64,000 bases of DNA from Streptomyces spinoverrucosus. Its GTDB lineage: Bacteria; Actinomycetota; Actinomycetes; Streptomycetales; Streptomycetaceae. The notes under the pieces are model-generated. The model was not told where the DNA came from. It was given only the letters and a program-made list of their open reading frames with translations, and searched no databases. Location: the NCBI RefSeq assembly GCF_015712165.1, contig NZ_JADPZX010000001.1, forward strand, positions 992,001 through 1,056,000, read 5' to 3'. Shown here in pieces: positions 37,948-46,045 of this stretch (its first letter is position 1; each line of letters starts with the position of its first letter). A program made the position numbers and the translations under genes.

Positions 37948-38082
37948 TCACCCGGTGAACAGCTGTGTCGCCTTTTGTACGAGTTCGTACAGGCCGTACG
38001 CGAGCGGCGTGCCCACCCACAGCCAGGCGAACACGATCAGCGGGCGCCGGTCAGGCCGACTCCGGCTGTTGTCGTTCGACAT
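37948..38082 (-). CDS. 44-residue single-helix protein, probable small subunit of the OFA transporter
   Basis: A small gene encoding MSNDNSRSRPDRRP followed by one hydrophobic helix LIVFAWLWVGTPLAYGLYEL and a short polar tail ending FTG. Its ATG lies inside the last codons of the upstream OFA transporter gene (32-base overlap), implying translational coupling. Tiny one-helix proteins of this kind are found directly after OFA transporter genes in actinobacteria and are annotated as transporter small subunits. The N-terminus is positive, so the helix probably has its N-end in the cytoplasm. The other OFA gene in this window (13034-14419) has no such partner. Confidence 0.75.
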   Translation of the reverse strand: MSNDNSRSRPDRRPLIVFAWLWVGTPLAYGLYELVQKATQLFTG

Positions 38083-39418
38083 CGACGGCCTCCTGACGGG
38101 GGGCGGGGACATGGTGACGGGGGTGGACGGGGCGGACGAGTTCGTTGGCGACGAAGCCGACGACCAGCAGCCCGATCATGATGGTGAACGACAGCCCGTA
38201 CAGGGACGCGCCGTGCTGGCCGGCCTCCTCCTGCCGGTCGGCGATCCAGTTGACGATCAGCGGCCCGAGCACGCCGGCCGTGGACCAGGCGGTGAGCAGC
38301 CGCCCGTGGATCGCGCCGACCTGGTAGGTGCCGAAGAGGTCCTTCAGATACGCCGGAATCGTCGCGAAGCCGCCGCCGTAGAAGGAGAGGATCACCAGTG
38401 CGCACAGGATGAACAGCGGCTTGGACGAGTCGCCGAACAGGGCGATGAGCAGGTACATCAACGCGCCCACGCCCAGGTACACGCGGTAGATGTTCTTGCG
38501 TCCGACCAGGTCGGACGTCGACGACCAGGCGATGCGGCCCGCCATGTTCGCCGCCGAGAGCAGCGCGACGAACCCGGCGGCCGCCGTCACGGAGACCGGT
38601 GTCGAGGTGTCCGCGAAGAAGTCCGTGATCATCGGGGCGGCCTTCTCGAGGATGCCGATGCCGGCGGTCACGTTCATGCAGAGCACGATCCACAGGCACC
38701 AGAACTGGGGTGTGCGGATCGCCTGGTTCGCGGACACCTGCGGGCCGGTGGGTGCCGGTCGCGCCCCCGCGGCGGTAGCCGCAGACTCAACACTGCCCCG
38801 CGCCCCCGGGGCGCCTGCGGGCACCCGAACCAACAGCACGCCCAGCAACATGAAGACGGCGTACGACAGTCCGTGGACCAGGAAGGCGAGTGCGATTCCG
38901 GAGCTGTCGGAGCCGAAGGACTCCAGCATCTGGGCGCTCCACGGCGAGGCGATCAGCGCGCCGCCGCCGAAGCCCATGATGGCGATGCCGGTGGCCATGC
39001 CGGGCCGGTCCGGGAACCACTTGATCAAAGTGGAGACCGGCGAGATGTAGCCGATGCCGAGGCCGATCCCGCCGACGAAGCCGTAGCCGAGGACGATCAG
39101 CCAGTACTGCTCCGTCGCCGCGCCCAGCGCGGACAGCAGGAAGCCCGACGAGAAGCACACCAGCGCCACGGTCATCGCCCATCGCGGCCCCCTGCGCTCC
39201 ACGAGCGTGCCGCCGAACGCGGCGGACAGGCCGAGCATGACGATGCCGAGTTGGAAGGGCAGCGCGCTCTGGGTGCCGCTGAGACCGAGCGCGGATTCGA
39301 GGGGCGGCTTGAACACGCTCCAGGCGTAGGCCTGCCCGATGGAGAGATGTACGGAGAGCGCGGCGGGCGGCACCAGCCAGCGGCTCCAGCCGGGGGGTGC
39401 GACGGGGGGACCACTCAT
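38051..39418 (-). CDS. OFA-family oxalate/formate MFS transporter, second copy
   Basis: A 455-residue 12-helix major facilitator. OFA traits include SIGQAYAWSVFKPPLE in helix 1, LIKWFPDRPGMATGIAIMGFGGGALI around the loop after helix 4, and GRIAWSSTSDLVGRKN between helices 8 and 9. The central loop (around residues 225-250) is Ala/Pro/Gly-rich and encoded by a Streptomyces-type repeat. The start at 39418 lacks a clear Shine-Dalgarno sequence; the next in-frame starts upstream would add a charged, non-homologous stretch. It diverges from the reductase/formate dehydrogenase operon, with the operator candidate 39542-39564 between them, and overlaps the small-subunit gene at its 3' end. Confidence 0.87.
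   Translation of the reverse strand: MSGPPVAPPGWSRWLVPPAALSVHLSIGQAYAWSVFKPPLESALGLSGTQSALPFQLGIVMLGLSAAFGGTLVERRGPRWAMTVALVCFSSGFLLSALGAATEQYWLIVLGYGFVGGIGLGIGYISPVSTLIKWFPDRPGMATGIAIMGFGGGALIASPWSAQMLESFGSDSSGIALAFLVHGLSYAVFMLLGVLLVRVPAGAPGARGSVESAATAAGARPAPTGPQVSANQAIRTPQFWCLWIVLCMNVTAGIGILEKAAPMITDFFADTSTPVSVTAAAGFVALLSAANMAGRIAWSSTSDLVGRKNIYRVYLGVGALMYLLIALFGDSSKPLFILCALVILSFYGGGFATIPAYLKDLFGTYQVGAIHGRLLTAWSTAGVLGPLIVNWIADRQEEAGQHGASLYGLSFTIMIGLLVVGFVANELVRPVHPRHHVPAPRQEAVDVERQQPESA
38739..38824 (-). repeat. Streptomyces-type interspersed repeat inside a transporter coding region
   Basis: On the minus strand the blocks GGGGCGCGGGGC, TGCGGCTACCGCCGCG, GGGCGCGACC and CGGCCCGCAG occur in the same order and spacing as in the intergenic copy at 30341-30412. 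Here they are read in frame as the central cytoplasmic loop of the second OFA transporter. Confidence 0.7.
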
Positions 39419-39541
39419 GAGTCCGGGACGGTAGGAAGGATCAAGGGAGTTGGAAAGACGGCGCGTCGACCGTATGCGATGAGCGGTATTCAACTTGCGC
39501 CGAACGGTCATCGCACGGACCCTTGTCGGCCCAACCTCCAT

Positions 39542-39564
39542 ACTGTAGACAATATTTCGTCGAC
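39542..39564. promoter_or_regulatory. Candidate GntR operator, divergent transporter / reductase-FDH promoter
   Basis: ACTGTAGACAATATTT followed by CGTCGAC. Its first 11 bases are the exact inverse of the site before the GntR gene (36837-36847). Both ACTGTA-KR-CAAT and TATTTCGTCGAC have close partners in the promoter region at 7761-7796. It lies about 60-80 bases before the reductase start and about 125 from the transporter start. Confidence 0.7.
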
Positions 39565-39621
39565 ATAAGCCGTACGGCGTCACCTCCGCGGTACTCCCTC
39601 GACCGAACGGAGTGTTCCGAA

Positions 39622-40593
39622 GTGAAAGTCGCAGTCCTCGGCGCCGGTGCGATCGGCGCCTACGTCGGTGCCGCGCTCCACCGCGCGGGAGCCGAAGTGC
39701 ACCTCATCGCCCGTGGACCGCATCTCGCGGCCATGAGGCGGCACGGAGTACGGGTCCTCAGCCCGCGCGGCGACTTCACCGCGCACCCCCACGCCACCGA
39801 CGACCCGGCCGAAGTCGGCCCGGTGGACTATGTCTTCCTGGGCCTGAAGGCCAACTCGTACGCGGCGTGCGGGCCGCTGATCAAGCCACTGCTGCACGAC
39901 ACCACGGCGGTGATCGCCGCCCAGAACGGCATCCCGTGGTGGTACTTCCACCGCCACGGCGGCCCCTACGACGGCCACCGCATCGAGAGCGTGGACCCCG
40001 ACGGCGCGGTCAGTGCGGTGCTCGCGCCCGACCGGGCCATCGGCTGCGTCGTCTACGCGGCCACCGAACTCGAAGGCCCGGGCGTCGTACGGCACCTGGA
40101 AGGCACCCGGTTCTCCATCGGCGAGCCGGACCGCAGCGTCTCCGTCAGGTGCTCGGCCTTCAGCGAGGCGATGCTGGCCGGCGGCCTGAAGTGCCCGGTC
40201 GAACCGCACCTGCGCAACGACATCTGGCTGAAGCTGCTCGGCAACATCTCCTTCAACCCGATCAGTGCGCTGTCCCGCGCGACCATGCGCCAGATGTGCC
40301 TGCACGGCGGCACCCGCAAGGTCATCGAGATCATGATGACCGAGACGCTCGCCGTCGCCGAGGCCCTCGGCTGCGAGGTCGGCGTCTCCATCGAACGCCG
40401 CCTCGCCGGCGCCGAAAAGGTCGGCGACCACCGCACCTCCACGCTCCAGGACCTGGAGCGCGGCAAACCGCTCGAACTCGACGTGCTGCTCGCGGCGGTC
40501 GTCGAGTTGGCGGAGATCACCGGCGTCGACGTGCCCACCCTGCGCACCGTGCACGCCATCTCGGACCTGCTCGCGCTGAGGAGCGCCGCATGA
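39622..40593 (+). CDS. Ketopantoate-reductase-family enzyme, probable oxalyl-CoA reductase (PanE2-like)
   Basis: A 323-residue NADP(H)-dependent reductase of the 2-dehydropantoate 2-reductase family. The Rossmann motif VAVLGAGAIGAYVGAAL opens the protein. The catalytic Lys and Asn lie in IWLKLLGNISFNPIS (near residue 210), and the conserved STLQDLERGKPLELD near residue 276 holds the second active-site acid. The GTG at 39622 has GGAG upstream. It overlaps the formate dehydrogenase gene by four bases (ATGA), so it is co-translated with it. In Methylobacterium extorquens the panE2 gene of this family encodes oxalyl-CoA reductase, giving glyoxylate; the context here makes that the best guess over pantothenate synthesis. 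Confidence 0.8.
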   Translation: MKVAVLGAGAIGAYVGAALHRAGAEVHLIARGPHLAAMRRHGVRVLSPRGDFTAHPHATDDPAEVGPVDYVFLGLKANSYAACGPLIKPLLHDTTAVIAAQNGIPWWYFHRHGGPYDGHRIESVDPDGAVSAVLAPDRAIGCVVYAATELEGPGVVRHLEGTRFSIGEPDRSVSVRCSAFSEAMLAGGLKCPVEPHLRNDIWLKLLGNISFNPISALSRATMRQMCLHGGTRKVIEIMMTETLAVAEALGCEVGVSIERRLAGAEKVGDHRTSTLQDLERGKPLELDVLLAAVVELAEITGVDVPTLRTVHAISDLLALRSAA

Positions 40594-42509
40594 GGAAACG
40601 CGAACCGAAGACCTACACCAGGCTGACCCACCCCCTCGTCAGGGACTCACGCGACGAGCCGTTCCGCCCGGCGACCTGGCAGGAGGCCCTGGACCGGGCC
40701 GCCCGGGGTCTGGAGCGCAACCGAGACGCGTTCGGCATGTTCTCCTGCGCCCGCGCGACCAACGAGATGAACTACGTCGCCCAGAAGTTCGCCCGCGTGG
40801 TCATGGGCACCAACAACGTCGACTCCTGCAACCGCACCTGCCACGCCCCGAGTGTCGCGGGCCTGTCCGCCGCGTTCGGCTCCGGCGGCGGTACCTCGTC
40901 GTACGAGGAGATCGAGCACACCGACGTCATCGTGATGTGGGGTTCCAACGCCCGCTTCGCCCACCCGATCTTCTTCCAGCACGTGCTGAGGGGGATCAGG
41001 AACGGCGCCCGGATGTACGCCGTCGATCCGCGCCGCACCTCCACCGCCGAGTGGGCGGAGAGCTGGCTCGGCATCGACGTCGGCACCGACATCCCGATGG
41101 CACACGCGATCGGCCGCGAGATCATCCACGCGGGGCTCGCCAACGAGGCGTTCATCGAACGGGCCACCACCGGCTTCGAGGAGTACAAGGCGCTCGTCGA
41201 GCCGTGGACGCTGTCGCTCGCCGAGAAGGTGACGGGCGTACCGGCCGCCGCCATCAGGGACCTGGCCCACGCCTTCGCCCGCGCCGAACGCGCCCAGCTG
41301 TGCTGGACCCTCGGCATCACCGAGCACCACAACGGCACCGACAACGTCCGCGCGCTCATCAACCTGTCCCTGCTGACCGGCCACGTCGGCCGCTACGGCT
41401 CCGGCCTGCAGCCGCTGCGCGGCCAGAACAACGTGCAGGGCGGCGGCGACATGGGCGCGATCCCCAACCGCCTGCCGGGCTTCCAGGACATCCTCGACGC
41501 GGACACCCGGCTGAAGTTCGAGTCGGCCTGGGACACCGTCATCCAGCCGCACTACGGACTGAACCTCACGGAGATGTTCGAGGCGATGGAGGAGGGCACC
41601 CTCAAGGCCGTCTACTGCATCGGCGAGAACCCCGCCCAGTCGGAGGCGGACAGCGAACAGGCGATACGGCGGCTGAAGGCCCTCGACTTCCTCGTCGTAC
41701 AGGACATCTTCCTGACGAAGACCGCCGAACTGGCGGACGTCGTGCTGCCCGCGACCGCCGGATGGGCCGAGACCGACGGCACGACCACCAACAGCGAGCG
41801 GCGCGTGCAGCGGGTGCGCAAGGCCGTCACCCCGCCCGGCGAGGCCCGCGAGGACATCGACATCATCTGCGAGCTGGCGGCACGCCTCGGCCACGACTGG
41901 AAGTACGCCGACGCCGAGGCCGTCTGGAACGAGCTGCGCTCGGTCTCGCCGGACCACTACGGGATGACGTACGACCGCCTGGAGGAGCGCCAGGGCATCC
42001 AGTGGCCGTGCCCGAGCACCGACCGGCTCGAACCCACCTATCTGCACGGCCGGTTGTGGGAGTCGGACCCGGCGAGGCGTGGCCGGCTCGCGCCCTTCGG
42101 GCTCGTCCAGCACGACCCGCCCGTCGACCTCACCGACGACCAGTACCCGATCCGGCTCACCACCGGTCGCCGGCTCGACTCCTACAACACCGGTGTGCAG
42201 AGCGGCAGTTTCGCCTCCCCGCTCAGGCGCGGCGAGTACGTCGAGCTGTGCCCGGAGGACGCCGAGCGGTACGGGGTCGTGGTGGGCGAGGAGGTGCAGG
42301 TGACCTCCCGGCGGGGGTCCGTGGTCGCGCCCGTGTGGGTCGACCCAGCGCTGCGGCCCGGCCTCGCCTTCATGACCATGCACTTTCCCGACGAGGTGGA
42401 CACCAACCAGCTGACGATCGAGGCGAACTGCCCGATCGCGGGCACGGCGGAGTTCAAGGCGTCGGCGATCCGGATCGAGAAGCTCCCCGTCGCGACCATC
42501 GTGAGGTGA
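40590..42509 (+). CDS. Formate dehydrogenase, molybdopterin catalytic subunit lacking its Fe4S4 domain
   Basis: A 639-residue molybdopterin-oxidoreductase chain of the FdhF/FdhA type. The active-site tract NNVDSCNRTCHAPSVAGL (near residues 75-92) aligns with the formate dehydrogenase tract that carries Sec or Cys followed by His; here it is Cys (TGC codon). LRGQNNVQGGGDMGAIPN near residue 283 and the C-terminal molydopterin-dinucleotide-binding domain (LTTGRRLDSYNTGVQSG) are typical. What is missing is the N-terminal C-x2-C-x3-C-x27-C iron-sulfur domain that normally precedes THPLVRD; it is found instead at the end of the gene at 44329-45189. It oxidises formate to CO2 in the cytoplasm. Confidence 0.9.
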   Translation: MRKREPKTYTRLTHPLVRDSRDEPFRPATWQEALDRAARGLERNRDAFGMFSCARATNEMNYVAQKFARVVMGTNNVDSCNRTCHAPSVAGLSAAFGSGGGTSSYEEIEHTDVIVMWGSNARFAHPIFFQHVLRGIRNGARMYAVDPRRTSTAEWAESWLGIDVGTDIPMAHAIGREIIHAGLANEAFIERATTGFEEYKALVEPWTLSLAEKVTGVPAAAIRDLAHAFARAERAQLCWTLGITEHHNGTDNVRALINLSLLTGHVGRYGSGLQPLRGQNNVQGGGDMGAIPNRLPGFQDILDADTRLKFESAWDTVIQPHYGLNLTEMFEAMEEGTLKAVYCIGENPAQSEADSEQAIRRLKALDFLVVQDIFLTKTAELADVVLPATAGWAETDGTTTNSERRVQRVRKAVTPPGEAREDIDIICELAARLGHDWKYADAEAVWNELRSVSPDHYGMTYDRLEERQGIQWPCPSTDRLEPTYLHGRLWESDPARRGRLAPFGLVQHDPPVDLTDDQYPIRLTTGRRLDSYNTGVQSGSFASPLRRGEYVELCPEDAERYGVVVGEEVQVTSRRGSVVAPVWVDPALRPGLAFMTMHFPDEVDTNQLTIEANCPIAGTAEFKASAIRIEKLPVATIVR

Positions 42510-42514
42510 CGTAA

Positions 42515-44332
42515 GTGGACCTGCACTTCGGCGACAGCAAACCGACGGACGACGAACGGGCGGCCGTCGACGCCCTGCTCGGCCCGCCGGAGTCCTCCTG
42601 GGAGGGCGCCGACCGCTCCGACGCGGACCTGCGCTGGGCGCGCGGCGGGCGCGAGGCCCGGGACCGCCGCGACCTGCTGTTGCCGGGGCTGCACGCGATC
42701 AACGACCGGGTGGGCTGGATCAGCGAGGGCGCCCTGGACTACCTGTGCCGGCGGCTGACCGTGCCGCCGGCGGAGGCGTACGGGGTGGCCACCTTCTACG
42801 CGATGTTCTCGGTGAAGCCCCGGCCCGCGACCGTGCTCCACGTGTGCACGGACCTGGCGTGCGCGGCCGCCGGGGCGCCGGAGCTGTGCGCCGGGATCGA
42901 GGCCCGGCTCGGCCCCGGCGTCCACGTCGAGCGCAGCCCCTGCCTCGGCCTGTGCGAACGCGCCCCGGCCGCGCTGGCGATCAGGGCCGGGGATCCGGTG
43001 CGTACGGCGGTCTCGGCACCGGCGACCGTCGAAGGAGCCGTCCTCGCCGCGACCGCGCCGGACTCCGCGCCCGAGGAGCCCCCGGCGGCGATGGCGGTCC
43101 CCCAGGCGGGCGGCGACGACCTGATCCTCCTGCGTCGCGTCGGCGTGGTGGATCCGCTCAGCCTCGACGACTACCGCGCCCACGGCGGCTACACGGCCCT
43201 GCGCCGGGCCTTCGAACTCGGCCCCGCCGGAGTCATCCGCGAGGTCACCGACTCCGGCCTGGTCGGGCGTGGCGGCGCCGCCTTCCCCACCGGCCGCAAG
43301 TGGCAGGCCACGGCGTCCCAGCCCGACCACCCGCACTACGTCGTCTGCAACGCCGACGAGTCCGAGCCGGGCACCTTCAAGGACCGGGTGCTCATGGAGG
43401 GCGACCCGTACGCGCTGATCGAGTCCATGACCATCGCGGCGTATGCCACCGGTGCCCACCAGGGCTATCTCTACCTGCGCGGCGAGTACCCGCGCGCCCT
43501 GCACCGCCTGGAACACGCCATCGCCCAGGCACGCGCGCGCGGCCTGCTCGGCGACGACGTCCTGGGGCAGGGCTACGCCTTCGACATCGAGATCCGGCGG
43601 GGCGCGGGGGCGTACATCTGCGGCGAGGAGACGGCGCTGTTCAACTCCATCGAGGGCTACCGGGGCGAGCCACGCTCGAAGCCGCCCTTCCCGGTGGAGA
43701 AGGGCCTGTTCGGCAAGCCGACGGTCGAGAACAACGTGGAGACCCTGGTCAACGTGCTGCCGATCCTGACCATGGGCGCACCCGCGTACGCGGCGATCGG
43801 GACGGAGCGGTCCACCGGTCCGAAGCTGTTCTGCGTGTCCGGGAGCGTGGAGCGGCCGGGAATCTACGAGCTGCCGTTCGGCGCGACGCTGGGTGAGCTG
43901 CTGGAGCTGGCGGGTGTGCGCGAGCGCCTGCGCGCGGTCCTGCTCGGCGGCGCGGCGGGCGGCTTCGTACGGCCCGACGAGAGGGACATCCCGCTCACCT
44001 TCGAGGGCACCCGCGAGGCCGGCACGACGCTCGGCTCGGGCGTCGTGATGGCCTTCGACGACACCGTGCCGCTGCCCCGGCTGCTGCTGCGCATCGCCGA
44101 GTTCTTCCGTGACGAGTCGTGCGGGCAGTGCGTGCCGTGCCGGGTCGGCACCGTGCGGCAGGAGGAGGCGCTGCACCGGATCGTGGCGCGCACCGGTGCC
44201 GCTGCCGCGGACGACATCGCGCTGCTCAGGGACGTCGGCCGCGCGATGCGGGACGCCTCGATCTGCGGTCTGGGACAGACCGCCTGGAACGCCGTGGAAT
44301 CCGCCATCGACCGTCTGGGAGCGTACGAATGA
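42515..44332 (+). CDS. Formate dehydrogenase NAD-reducing subunit, NuoE-NuoF fusion
   Basis: A 605-residue diaphorase subunit. The N-terminal NuoE-like thioredoxin fold (about residues 40-180) has the [2Fe-2S] ligands in VCTDLACAAAG (C-x4-C) and PCLGLCE (C-x3-C). The NuoF-like part (from about 210) has FMN/NADH-binding GRGGAAFPTGRKW, NADESEPGTFKDR, the ICGEETAL tract and the [4Fe-4S] motif SCGQCVPCRVGT near residue 535. It starts with GTG five bases after the catalytic gene and overlaps the next gene by four bases. It passes electrons from formate to NAD+, so the complex is a soluble NAD-linked formate dehydrogenase. Confidence 0.93.
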   Translation: MDLHFGDSKPTDDERAAVDALLGPPESSWEGADRSDADLRWARGGREARDRRDLLLPGLHAINDRVGWISEGALDYLCRRLTVPPAEAYGVATFYAMFSVKPRPATVLHVCTDLACAAAGAPELCAGIEARLGPGVHVERSPCLGLCERAPAALAIRAGDPVRTAVSAPATVEGAVLAATAPDSAPEEPPAAMAVPQAGGDDLILLRRVGVVDPLSLDDYRAHGGYTALRRAFELGPAGVIREVTDSGLVGRGGAAFPTGRKWQATASQPDHPHYVVCNADESEPGTFKDRVLMEGDPYALIESMTIAAYATGAHQGYLYLRGEYPRALHRLEHAIAQARARGLLGDDVLGQGYAFDIEIRRGAGAYICGEETALFNSIEGYRGEPRSKPPFPVEKGLFGKPTVENNVETLVNVLPILTMGAPAYAAIGTERSTGPKLFCVSGSVERPGIYELPFGATLGELLELAGVRERLRAVLLGGAAGGFVRPDERDIPLTFEGTREAGTTLGSGVVMAFDDTVPLPRLLLRIAEFFRDESCGQCVPCRVGTVRQEEALHRIVARTGAAAADDIALLRDVGRAMRDASICGLGQTAWNAVESAIDRLGAYE

Positions 44333-45189
44333 CCGCGATACCGCTGGGAGTGCCGCGCCGGCTGGTCGAGTTCACGATCGACGGGCAGGAGGCCAGGGTC
44401 CCGGAGGGCTCGACCATCCTCGACGCCTGCCGGGCCGCCGGAAAGGACGTCCCCACCCTCTGCCACGGCGACACCCTCACCCCGAAGAACGCCTGCCGGG
44501 TCTGCGTGGTCGAGGTGGAGGGCTCCCGCACCCTGGTCCCGGCCTGCTCCCGCAGGGCGGAACCGGGCATGACCGTCCACACGGAAACGGAACGCGCCCG
44601 GCACAGCCGCAAGCTCGTCCTGGAGCTGCTCGCCTCCTCGGTCGACCTGTCGACCACACCCCAGGTCGCCGGGTGGATCAAGGAGTACGAGGCCAAACCG
44701 GACCGCTTCGGCCCCGAGGCCGCCCGCCTCAACGAGGAACCCAGGATCGACAACGACCTCTACGTCCGCGACTACGACAAGTGCATCCTCTGTTACAAGT
44801 GCGTCGACGCCTGTGGCGACCAGTGGCAGAACACCTTCGCGATCTCGGTCGCAGGCCGGGGTTTCGACGCCCGGATCGCGGTCGAGCACGACGCCCCGCT
44901 CACCGACTCGGCGTGCGTGTACTGCGGCAACTGCATCGAGGTCTGTCCGACGGGCGCTCTGTCGTTCAAGTCGGAGTTCGACATGCGGGAGGCGGGTACG
45001 TGGGACGAGTCGAAGCAGACGGAGACGACGACGGTGTGTGCCTACTGCGGAGTGGGCTGCAACCTCACGCTCCACGTGCAGGACAATGAGATCGTCAAGG
45101 TCACCTCGCCGCACGACAACCCGGTGACCCACGGCAACCTCTGCATCAAGGGCCGTTTCGGCTACCAGCACGTACAGAACCGGGGCTGA
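44329..45189 (+). CDS. Formate dehydrogenase iron-sulfur subunit carrying the displaced Fe4S4 domain of the catalytic chain
   Basis: A 286-residue electron-transfer subunit. It has an N-terminal plant-type [2Fe-2S] domain ([21 protein letters not shown] and the distal Cys near residue 66) and a NuoG-like His/Cys cluster region. Two [4Fe-4S] ferredoxin motifs follow ([13 protein letters not shown] and [19 protein letters not shown]). The last 50 residues are [14 protein letters not shown] to [10 protein letters not shown], the Fe4S4 domain that in ordinary FdhA directly precedes the molybdopterin domain. The protein stops a few residues later, exactly where the catalytic gene (40590) would continue. 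So this is the N-terminal half of a split FdhA, placed downstream of its C-terminal half. Confidence 0.92.
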
Positions 45190-45196
45190 GCAGGAC

Positions 45197-46045
45197 ATGG
45201 GACGAGTCACGGAACGACGCAAGGTGATCCGCATCCGGGACGGCGCGGTCTCCACCCGCCCGGACACGCTCGTCGCCGAGGAACCCCTGGAGATCCGGCT
45301 GAACGGCAAGCCGCTCGCGATCACCATGCGCACCCCCGGCGACGACTTCGCGCTCGCGGCGGGGTTCCTGGTGAGCGAGGGGGTGCTCGCCGAGCGGCAG
45401 GATCTGCAGAACATCGTCTACTGCGCGGGCGCCACCGTGGACGGCTCGAACACGTACAACGTGGTGGACGTGAAGACGGCCGCCGGGGTCGCGATCCCCG
45501 ACATCACCCTCGAACGCAACGTCTACACGACCTCGTCCTGCGGGCTGTGCGGCAAGGCCAGCCTGGACGCGGTGCGCACGACGGCCCGCTGGCCCATCGC
45601 CGACACTCCCCCGGTCCGGGTGGAGCCCGAGCTGCTCGCGAGCCTCCCCGACCGGCTCCGCGCGGCCCAGCGGGTCTTCGACCGGACCGGGGGGCTGCAC
45701 GCGGCGGCGCTGTTCACGGAGGACGGCGAGCTGCTGGACATACGGGAGGACGTGGGCCGGCACAACGCCGTCGACAAGCTGGTCGGCCGCGCCCTGCAGA
45801 ACGGCGACCTGCCCCTGACCCGGACGATTCTGCTGGTGTCCGGCCGGGCCTCCTTCGAGCTGGCGCAGAAGGCCGTGATGGCGGGCATCCCGATGCTGGC
45901 GGCGGTCTCGGCGCCCTCGTCGCTGGCGGTGGACCTGGCCCACGAGACCGGGCTGACCCTGGTGGGCTTCCTGCGGGGCAGCTCCATGAACGTGTACGCG
46001 GGCGAGGACCGGGTCGCTCTGCGGACCGCGGCCGCCCAGGGCTGA
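45197..46045 (+). CDS. fdhD: Formate dehydrogenase accessory sulfurtransferase FdhD
   Basis: A 282-residue FdhD protein, which transfers sulfur from a cysteine desulfurase to the molybdenum cofactor and is needed for formate dehydrogenase activity. Landmarks are [34 protein letters not shown], the sulfur-carrying Cys pair in [11 protein letters not shown] (near residue 119), [13 protein letters not shown] and the C-terminal [13 protein letters not shown] and [11 protein letters not shown]. It begins seven bases after the iron-sulfur subunit gene and ends the operon of reductase and formate dehydrogenase genes. Length matches the family. Confidence 0.95.

Follow-up and report, generated by a model that had tools for sequence, protein, structure and literature searches.

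The window analysed here is a stretch of 64,000 nucleotides from the 8.85 Mb genome of Streptomyces spinoverrucosus (G000:C1:992001-1056000; handles beginning with G and L denote our genomes and loci), and the system under study is a group of plus-strand genes within it for a putative three-chain formate dehydrogenase (FDH). The catalytic chain (40590..42509, 639 residues) was identified by the Pfam Molybdopterin and Molydop_binding domains, by the curated FDH alpha-chain model TIGR01591 and by alignment to FdsA of Rhodobacter capsulatus. It is followed by a NuoE-NuoF fusion (42515..44332, 605 residues), in which Pfam matched 2Fe-2S thioredoxin-like, flavin mononucleotide (FMN), SLBB and 4Fe-4S domains, and by a NuoG/HoxU-like subunit, called N below (44329..45189, 286 residues), assigned by Pfam (Fer2_4, Fer4-type and PF04879), the FdsA alignment and a motif scan. 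The feature marked in the initial annotation ended at position 45189, where the N gene has its stop codon. An ApbA/PanE-type 2-dehydropantoate 2-reductase gene (39622..40593, 39622 being a chosen start; Pfam ApbA and ApbA_C, NCBIfam 463 bits) opens the apparent operon, and the gene for FdhD, the accessory sulfurtransferase of FDH, closes it (45197..46045; Pfam FdhD-NarQ, NCBIfam above cut-off). Because the junctions are ATGA overlaps (at 40590, between the ApbA stop and the catalytic start, and at 44329) or gaps of 5 bases (before 42515) and 7 bases (before FdhD), the five genes are expected to form one co-translated operon.

The initial annotation had described an FDH alpha chain, FdhA, split at the boundary of its Fe4S4 and molybdopterin parts, with the C-terminal half encoded first and the NuoE-NuoF fusion in between. 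This observation is confirmed, and its interpretation as a split FdhA is supported; delivery of the proximal cluster in trans is very likely. PF04879, the Fe4S4 domain, was absent from the catalytic chain in the Pfam scan and was found two genes on, at residues 232-284 of N (45022..45180), with 75.4 bits in the protein scan and 79.6 bits in the genome search. Read by eye, its spacing is exactly C-x2-C-x3-C-x27-C-x-K, then GRFG, with C272-I-K274 as the last ligand and the following lysine. The 672 positions of TIGR01591 are covered by N from 1 to 50 (53.1 bits) and by the catalytic chain from 52 to 672 (624.3 bits); the cut-off of 666.25 is missed by either piece alone and passed by their arithmetic sum. 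In R. capsulatus FdsA (PDB 6tg9, chain A), N covers residues 16-303 and the catalytic chain 307-931, so that the two chains tile a standard FdhA end to end almost without a gap. A hidden Fe4S4 domain upstream in the catalytic frame was ruled out, no such motif being found in any of the 110 loci scanned.

Past GRFG, N continues for 4-72 residues (median 8, n = 121); the head of the catalytic chain before the RLTxPL-type motif has a median of 12 (n = 105, taking the nearest ATG or GTG as start). In a fused alpha chain, L200, 8 residues separate the two motifs (GRFG-FDFVNHPD-RL). From these lengths the break is placed within the inter-domain linker. The window genome holds four PF04879 and five PF00384 matches. 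The other three PF04879 matches lie in frames of 865, 1016 and 921 residues that also hold PF00384, which the N frame lacks; by similarity, the 921-residue frame is NuoG and the 865-residue frame is nitrate-reductase-like.

From its sequence, it is highly probable that the locus encodes a cytoplasmic FDH dependent on nicotinamide adenine dinucleotide (NAD+) and on molybdenum or tungsten (Mo/W), built of three chains, with the proximal cluster docked in trans by N and a split most likely due to a single fission. The three chains would replace the usual large alpha chain and its diaphorase. The catalytic chain would hold the metal site with its two molybdopterin guanine dinucleotides (bis-MGD); the expected metal ligand is Cys84 (codon 40839..40841), which precedes a histidine in the motif SCNRTCHAPS of the MopB domain, and the motif RGQNNVQG lies at 41418..41441. 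The C-terminal Fe4S4 domain of N would dock on the catalytic chain at the position it has in fused enzymes, and N would thus probably supply both the proximal cluster and the conserved lysine in trans. We take this lysine, K274, to lie between cluster and pterin. FdhD prepares the cofactor. In the direction of formate oxidation, electrons would run from the metal through clusters A1, A2, A3 and A5, all on N, to B6, FMN and NAD+ on the NuoE-NuoF fusion.

The relay was located on N by alignment and motif, with Pfam in addition for the ferredoxin part. The 2Fe-2S ligands C45, C56, C59 and C73 (44461..44547) stand at the place of R. capsulatus cluster A5, and two 4Fe-4S ferredoxin motifs (C152-C206; 44782..44946) at those of A3 and A2; the displaced Fe4S4 domain would carry A1. 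The motif scan covered 44 split N subunits, and every one has the A5, both ferredoxin and the A1 motifs. The motif of the dimer-interface cluster A4 (H-x3-C-x2-C-x(4-7)-C) was found in none of these 44; it is present in 14 of 18 fused comparators, those lacking it being L207, L209, L212 and L213. A complete path to FMN need not include A4. In R. capsulatus FDH the direct chain is formed by A1, A2, A3, A5 and B6, and A4 sits beside it at the dimer interface (available part of PMC7171172); in the alpha-beta heterodimer of Methylobacterium extorquens FDH1 (MeFDH1) the matching His-ligated cluster, numbered A5 in that paper, is missing (available part of PMC10869683). The N subunits of L167-L172 and L182-L192 are about 13-26 residues longer; an alignment of four of the long ones shows 24 inserted columns, after the 2Fe-2S domain and before the ferredoxin motifs, close to the place of the A4 domain.

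A scan of named genomes with N gave at least 553 stretches encoding a relative, fused ones possibly included, of which the best 80 were kept. Of these, 79 are from Streptomyces and one (L079) is labelled Actinobacteria bacterium; the nearest is S. spinoverrucosus, at 97% in N. In the window's family, at least 21 of 200 genomes have an intact-looking N at 82% identity or more, in addition to G190, whose N lies in two frames. N matches below 1e-70 were obtained in 66 of 200 genomes of family f17, and matches at 60% identity or more in 41 of 396 genomes of the phylum sample; a class-level sample overlaps all three. Plasmid records were the sole search beyond Actinomycetota, and none of the 218 that matched N reached 60% identity. 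In total 140 split loci were read (the 80 named, 40 hand-picked from the hits and 20 further f17 loci). The catalytic gene is present in 127 of them, always as a separate frame upstream, in the order catalytic, NuoE-NuoF, N; in the other 13 (10 of the 80, L175, L231 and L243) the contig ends 626-1758 bases upstream of N. The Fe4S4 spacing with its lysine is kept in 140 of 140 N subunits. Among the 127 catalytic chains, RGQNNVQGxxDMG is kept in all and SCNRT[C/U]HAPS in 125, L091 having SCTRTCHAPS; [C/U]HAPS stands at the ligand place in 126, and L188 is masked there.

Read-through of TAG in one genus (L159-L162) was considered and rejected: N ends there normally, some 4 residues past GRFG. In L158 and L164, tails of 36-38 extra residues rich in Ser, Ala, Gly and Pro follow the Fe4S4 match. 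In L193, the locus of G190, N is present as residues 1-75 and 65-226 plus the Fe4S4 domain in an otherwise complete operon, which is either real or a sequencing error.

Some observations weigh against the three-chain FDH and are given here with the alternatives. AlphaFold single-chain models were poor, with a mean predicted local distance difference test score of 46.5 for N and 33.2 for the catalytic chain, the input being the window and Streptomyces rows only. In the open-licence literature no interaction or activity report was found for a member of the family.

The evolutionary order was examined with trees. Split rows form one clade with support of 100/100 in both trees, where they make up 42 of 60 rows (catalytic chain) and 44 of 62 rows (N); the clade was recovered, with the same support, after outgroups had been added (25 of 48 and 25 of 49 rows). 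The trees with a NuoG outgroup leave the order of FDH lineages unresolved, and another tree model gives other weakly supported sisters of the split clade. In a 32-row test, with 10 of 18 split rows and without L209, the best tree joined the split clade to the Fds group (83/78); a grouping with Me1 was not rejected (p = 0.425), and one with the fused L200-L205 and L225-L228 FdhA, presumably Moorella-like, was borderline (p = 0.0498). A clade of all fused FDHs with the split clade outside was not rejected either (approximately unbiased test, p = 0.189), and this counts towards a primary split, in which the catalytic chain and the ferredoxin subunit were separate from the start and the large alpha chains came from later fusion, as does the long and deep split branch in both trees. 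We nevertheless regard a primary split as unlikely. In 18 of 18 fused comparators the N domain, Fe4S4 domain and catalytic part lie in one frame, so homologues of the catalytic chain do carry the domain that is missing here. The NuoG outgroup is likewise a fusion of N, Fe4S4 and MopB parts (the 921-residue frame of G000 with PF04879 and PF00384; matches in L221-L223), and in Escherichia coli FdhF, NapA and the nitrate-reductase-like protein of the window genome the catalytic match is immediately preceded by the Fe4S4 match. With a primary split, the Fe4S4 domain would first have sat on the partner and then been fused more than once.

Parsimony favours the fission of a fused alpha gene: with NuoG and all other FDH lineages that were read being fusions, it needs the fewest steps. 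Most likely it would have happened once, coupled to a rotation of the operon: tandem duplication of E-F-N.CAT (CAT being the catalytic part) and loss of both outer parts would leave CAT-E-F-N, with split and permuted order arising at once. Gene order varies among fused forms too, the alpha gene preceding E-F in L207 and L212.

The substrate was considered next to the build of the enzyme. Formate rests on homology, on FdhD and on one indirect report in which three selenocysteine (Sec) FDHs coexist. A three-chain oxidoreductase of the same build acting on another substrate would agree with the score of the catalytic chain, 624.3 against the Fdh-alpha cut-off of 666.25; the shortfall, however, is similar in size to the score of the absent Fe4S4 part, and the best PDB matches of the chain are FDHs. 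FdhD is the next gene after N in 79 of 80 named loci, 19 of 19 in L153-L171 and 13 of 20 in L231-L250, but in only 1 of 21 in L172-L192. A substrate other than formate is on balance quite improbable.

The role of the displaced cluster was examined in six loci of the window's family, among the matches listed, in which the operon is deleted save the end of N and FdhD (L194-L199; FdhD at 81-91% identity). One of them, L198, also retains an ApbA piece in the same frame, and PF00384 was matched 4 to 9 times in each remnant genome, in part by fragments. In L196, L198 and L199 the fourth Cys of the Fe4S4 motif is changed to Arg, and in L195 the frame is left. The ratio of nonsynonymous to synonymous substitution (dN/dS) of the Fe4S4 piece was calculated against the window from stretches of only 48-60 codons. 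It was 0.15-0.43 in remnants, 0.037-0.17 in eight intact Streptomyces loci, 0.05 in L193 and 0.10-0.28 in four intact loci of other genera. Because the piece tends to decay where the catalytic gene is gone, its constraint is read as dependent on the catalytic chain. Two results run the other way: L194 and L197 retain all four Cys ligands, and intact L157, at 0.28, falls inside the remnant range. A free-standing function of the piece in the six remnants is thought unlikely because four of them have lost a ligand or the frame.

The two undamaged remnants would also suit a relic, a cluster on N that does not serve the catalytic chain while electrons take a different way out of the metal site. There is a precedent in cluster N7 of Thermus thermophilus complex I, which corresponds to A1 and is disconnected there, whereas in R. 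capsulatus FDH A2 couples A1 to the chain (available part of PMC7171172). In the split N subunits the ferredoxin motifs that would give A2 and A3 are intact throughout the scan, the Fe4S4 spacing is exact in every locus read, and four of six remnants are damaged; a relic is accordingly judged very improbable. An assembly error, frameshift or misread start in a single genome, of which the N in two frames of L193 could be an example, is refuted as the source of the split and has a negligible chance, since all 127 loci share the break across Streptomyces, f17 and deeper Actinomycetota, and no frameshift gives the changed gene order; the split is neither an artefact nor unique to the window genome.

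The expected metal ligand itself varies in the putative three-chain FDH. Most deeper lineages, and f17 in part of its loci, have an in-frame TGA in place of the Cys84 codon (SCNRTUHAPS). A tRNA-Sec search at E up to 0.001 loosely matched 14 of 14 genomes and 14 of 14 controls, and the count was therefore limited to matches exceeding the Rfam cut-off. By this measure tRNA-Sec was present in 14 of 14 tested genomes with a Sec catalytic gene (including G1031, G931 and G955), in G1016 (decayed Sec copy), in G947 (contig without a catalytic gene) and in 2 of 10 tested genomes with only the Cys form (G021 and G953). It was not found in the other eight (G000, G033, G404, G097, G252, G1035, G428 and G546), the Cys form of G033 being taken from a stop-free match. 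In the tree the Cys forms are nested inside the Sec forms. Two changes were counted (bootstrap 2-3), one of which comes from L188, labelled Cys in the trees though its bases are masked at that residue; L175, which has no catalytic gene, was labelled Cys in the N tree. Sec and Cys catalytic genes stand in tandem in L167:2144-6047 (G1031), before a single E-F and N. The upstream Sec copy of L171 (G1016) survives only as pieces (residues 3-102, 132-340 and 572-633) beside an intact Cys copy. These two loci look like stages of Sec-to-Cys replacement. Separately, the tRNA-Sec gene was found in the same stretch as the split operon at L171:14999-15093 and L231:2392-2487.

A wider proposal is put forward tentatively, with not quite even confidence. 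An FDH lineage of Actinomycetota may have parted the metal site from the proximal cluster, such that one diaphorase-ferredoxin module, A1 included, serves exchangeable catalytic chains. The tandem genes of L167, the decay in L171 and the Cys-only operons would then be stages of a Sec-to-Cys swap eased by the split.

A major facilitator superfamily (MFS) transporter of the oxalate/formate antiporter superfamily is encoded divergently from the operon (38051-39583, minus strand); its top NCBIfam model is a lactate transporter, with a score slightly under the cut-off. It was found near 60 of 68 named loci having at least 1400 bases upstream. As an operon partner it was rejected, because 0 of 35 other loci carry it. 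In L160 (G1035), ApbA was matched in two same-frame pieces (residues 1-166 and 256-317), the middle part being gone.

To our knowledge, the proximal Fe-S cluster of MopB enzymes, where present, belongs to the catalytic chain. A conserved lineage with this cluster on a partner chain would be a naturally occurring system for combining, mutating and reconstituting the metal site and the first relay separately, and it offers a ready-made series of Sec and Cys catalytic chains that go with a single type of relay. Annotation may under-call split FDHs, because the catalytic chain falls 42 bits under the FDH cut-off while 51 model positions worth 53 bits lie in another gene.

No title or abstract on an FDH split at the Fe4S4/molybdopterin boundary was found in the open-licence literature. 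The main text of a MopB survey uses neither 'split' nor 'fused' (PMC10100899), and 'split' occurs in the available part of an FDH review only as water splitting (PMC13397495). The word is likewise absent from the main text of PMC7176365, which describes FDH3 of Actinomycetospora chiangmaiensis, a cytoplasmic, NAD+-dependent enzyme of 640 (FdhA3), 614 (FdhB3) and 316 (FdhC3) residues. The sizes match the split enzyme, L232 allowing 640/614/318 and L233 having similar lengths, and FDH3 is very likely a member of the family, by subunit size rather than sequence. In the available part of the same article, all FDH3 subunits were in the proteome, 2.2-3.1-fold higher on 2-hydroxyisobutyrate than on acetone; Sec is reported in the alpha subunits of three FDHs, FdhA3 included, and formate removal needed selenite (PMC7176365).

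HoxU of NAD-reducing hydrogenases is, like N, a stand-alone NuoG-like module. The NCBIfam HoxU model scores N at 133.4 bits against a cut-off of 333, and its match stops at residue 215 of 286; HoxU differs in ending before the molybdopterin-type Fe4S4 domain. Of the fused groups compared, the FdhA proteins of about 900 residues in deeper Actinomycetota (L200-L205 and L225-L228) have the Fe4S4 domain closest to that of split N (50-62%), and some have an in-frame TGA like the Sec split forms. They differ in being fused, with the F gene upstream, and in the A4 motif, seen in L200-L205, which were the only ones of them scanned. FdsABGD of R. capsulatus has the same domains and the path MGD-A1-A2-A3-A5-B6-FMN (available part of PMC7171172). 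It differs in its fused alpha chain, its separate FdsB and FdsG, its FdsD and its off-path His-Cys cluster A4.

The closest parallel in build is the tungsten enzyme MeFDH1. Its NuoE- and NuoF-like parts lie in one beta chain, as here, and its cluster set equals that of the split enzyme, with no His-ligated cluster (available part of PMC10869683). The catalytic and N domains of MeFDH1 (PDB 7vw6) are homologous to the split chains. The difference is that its alpha subunit is a single chain of 989 residues with the Fe4S4 domain inside, whereas that of the window is two chains with the catalytic gene first. By this comparison, the split enzyme would work as MeFDH1 does, but with an alpha chain divided in two.

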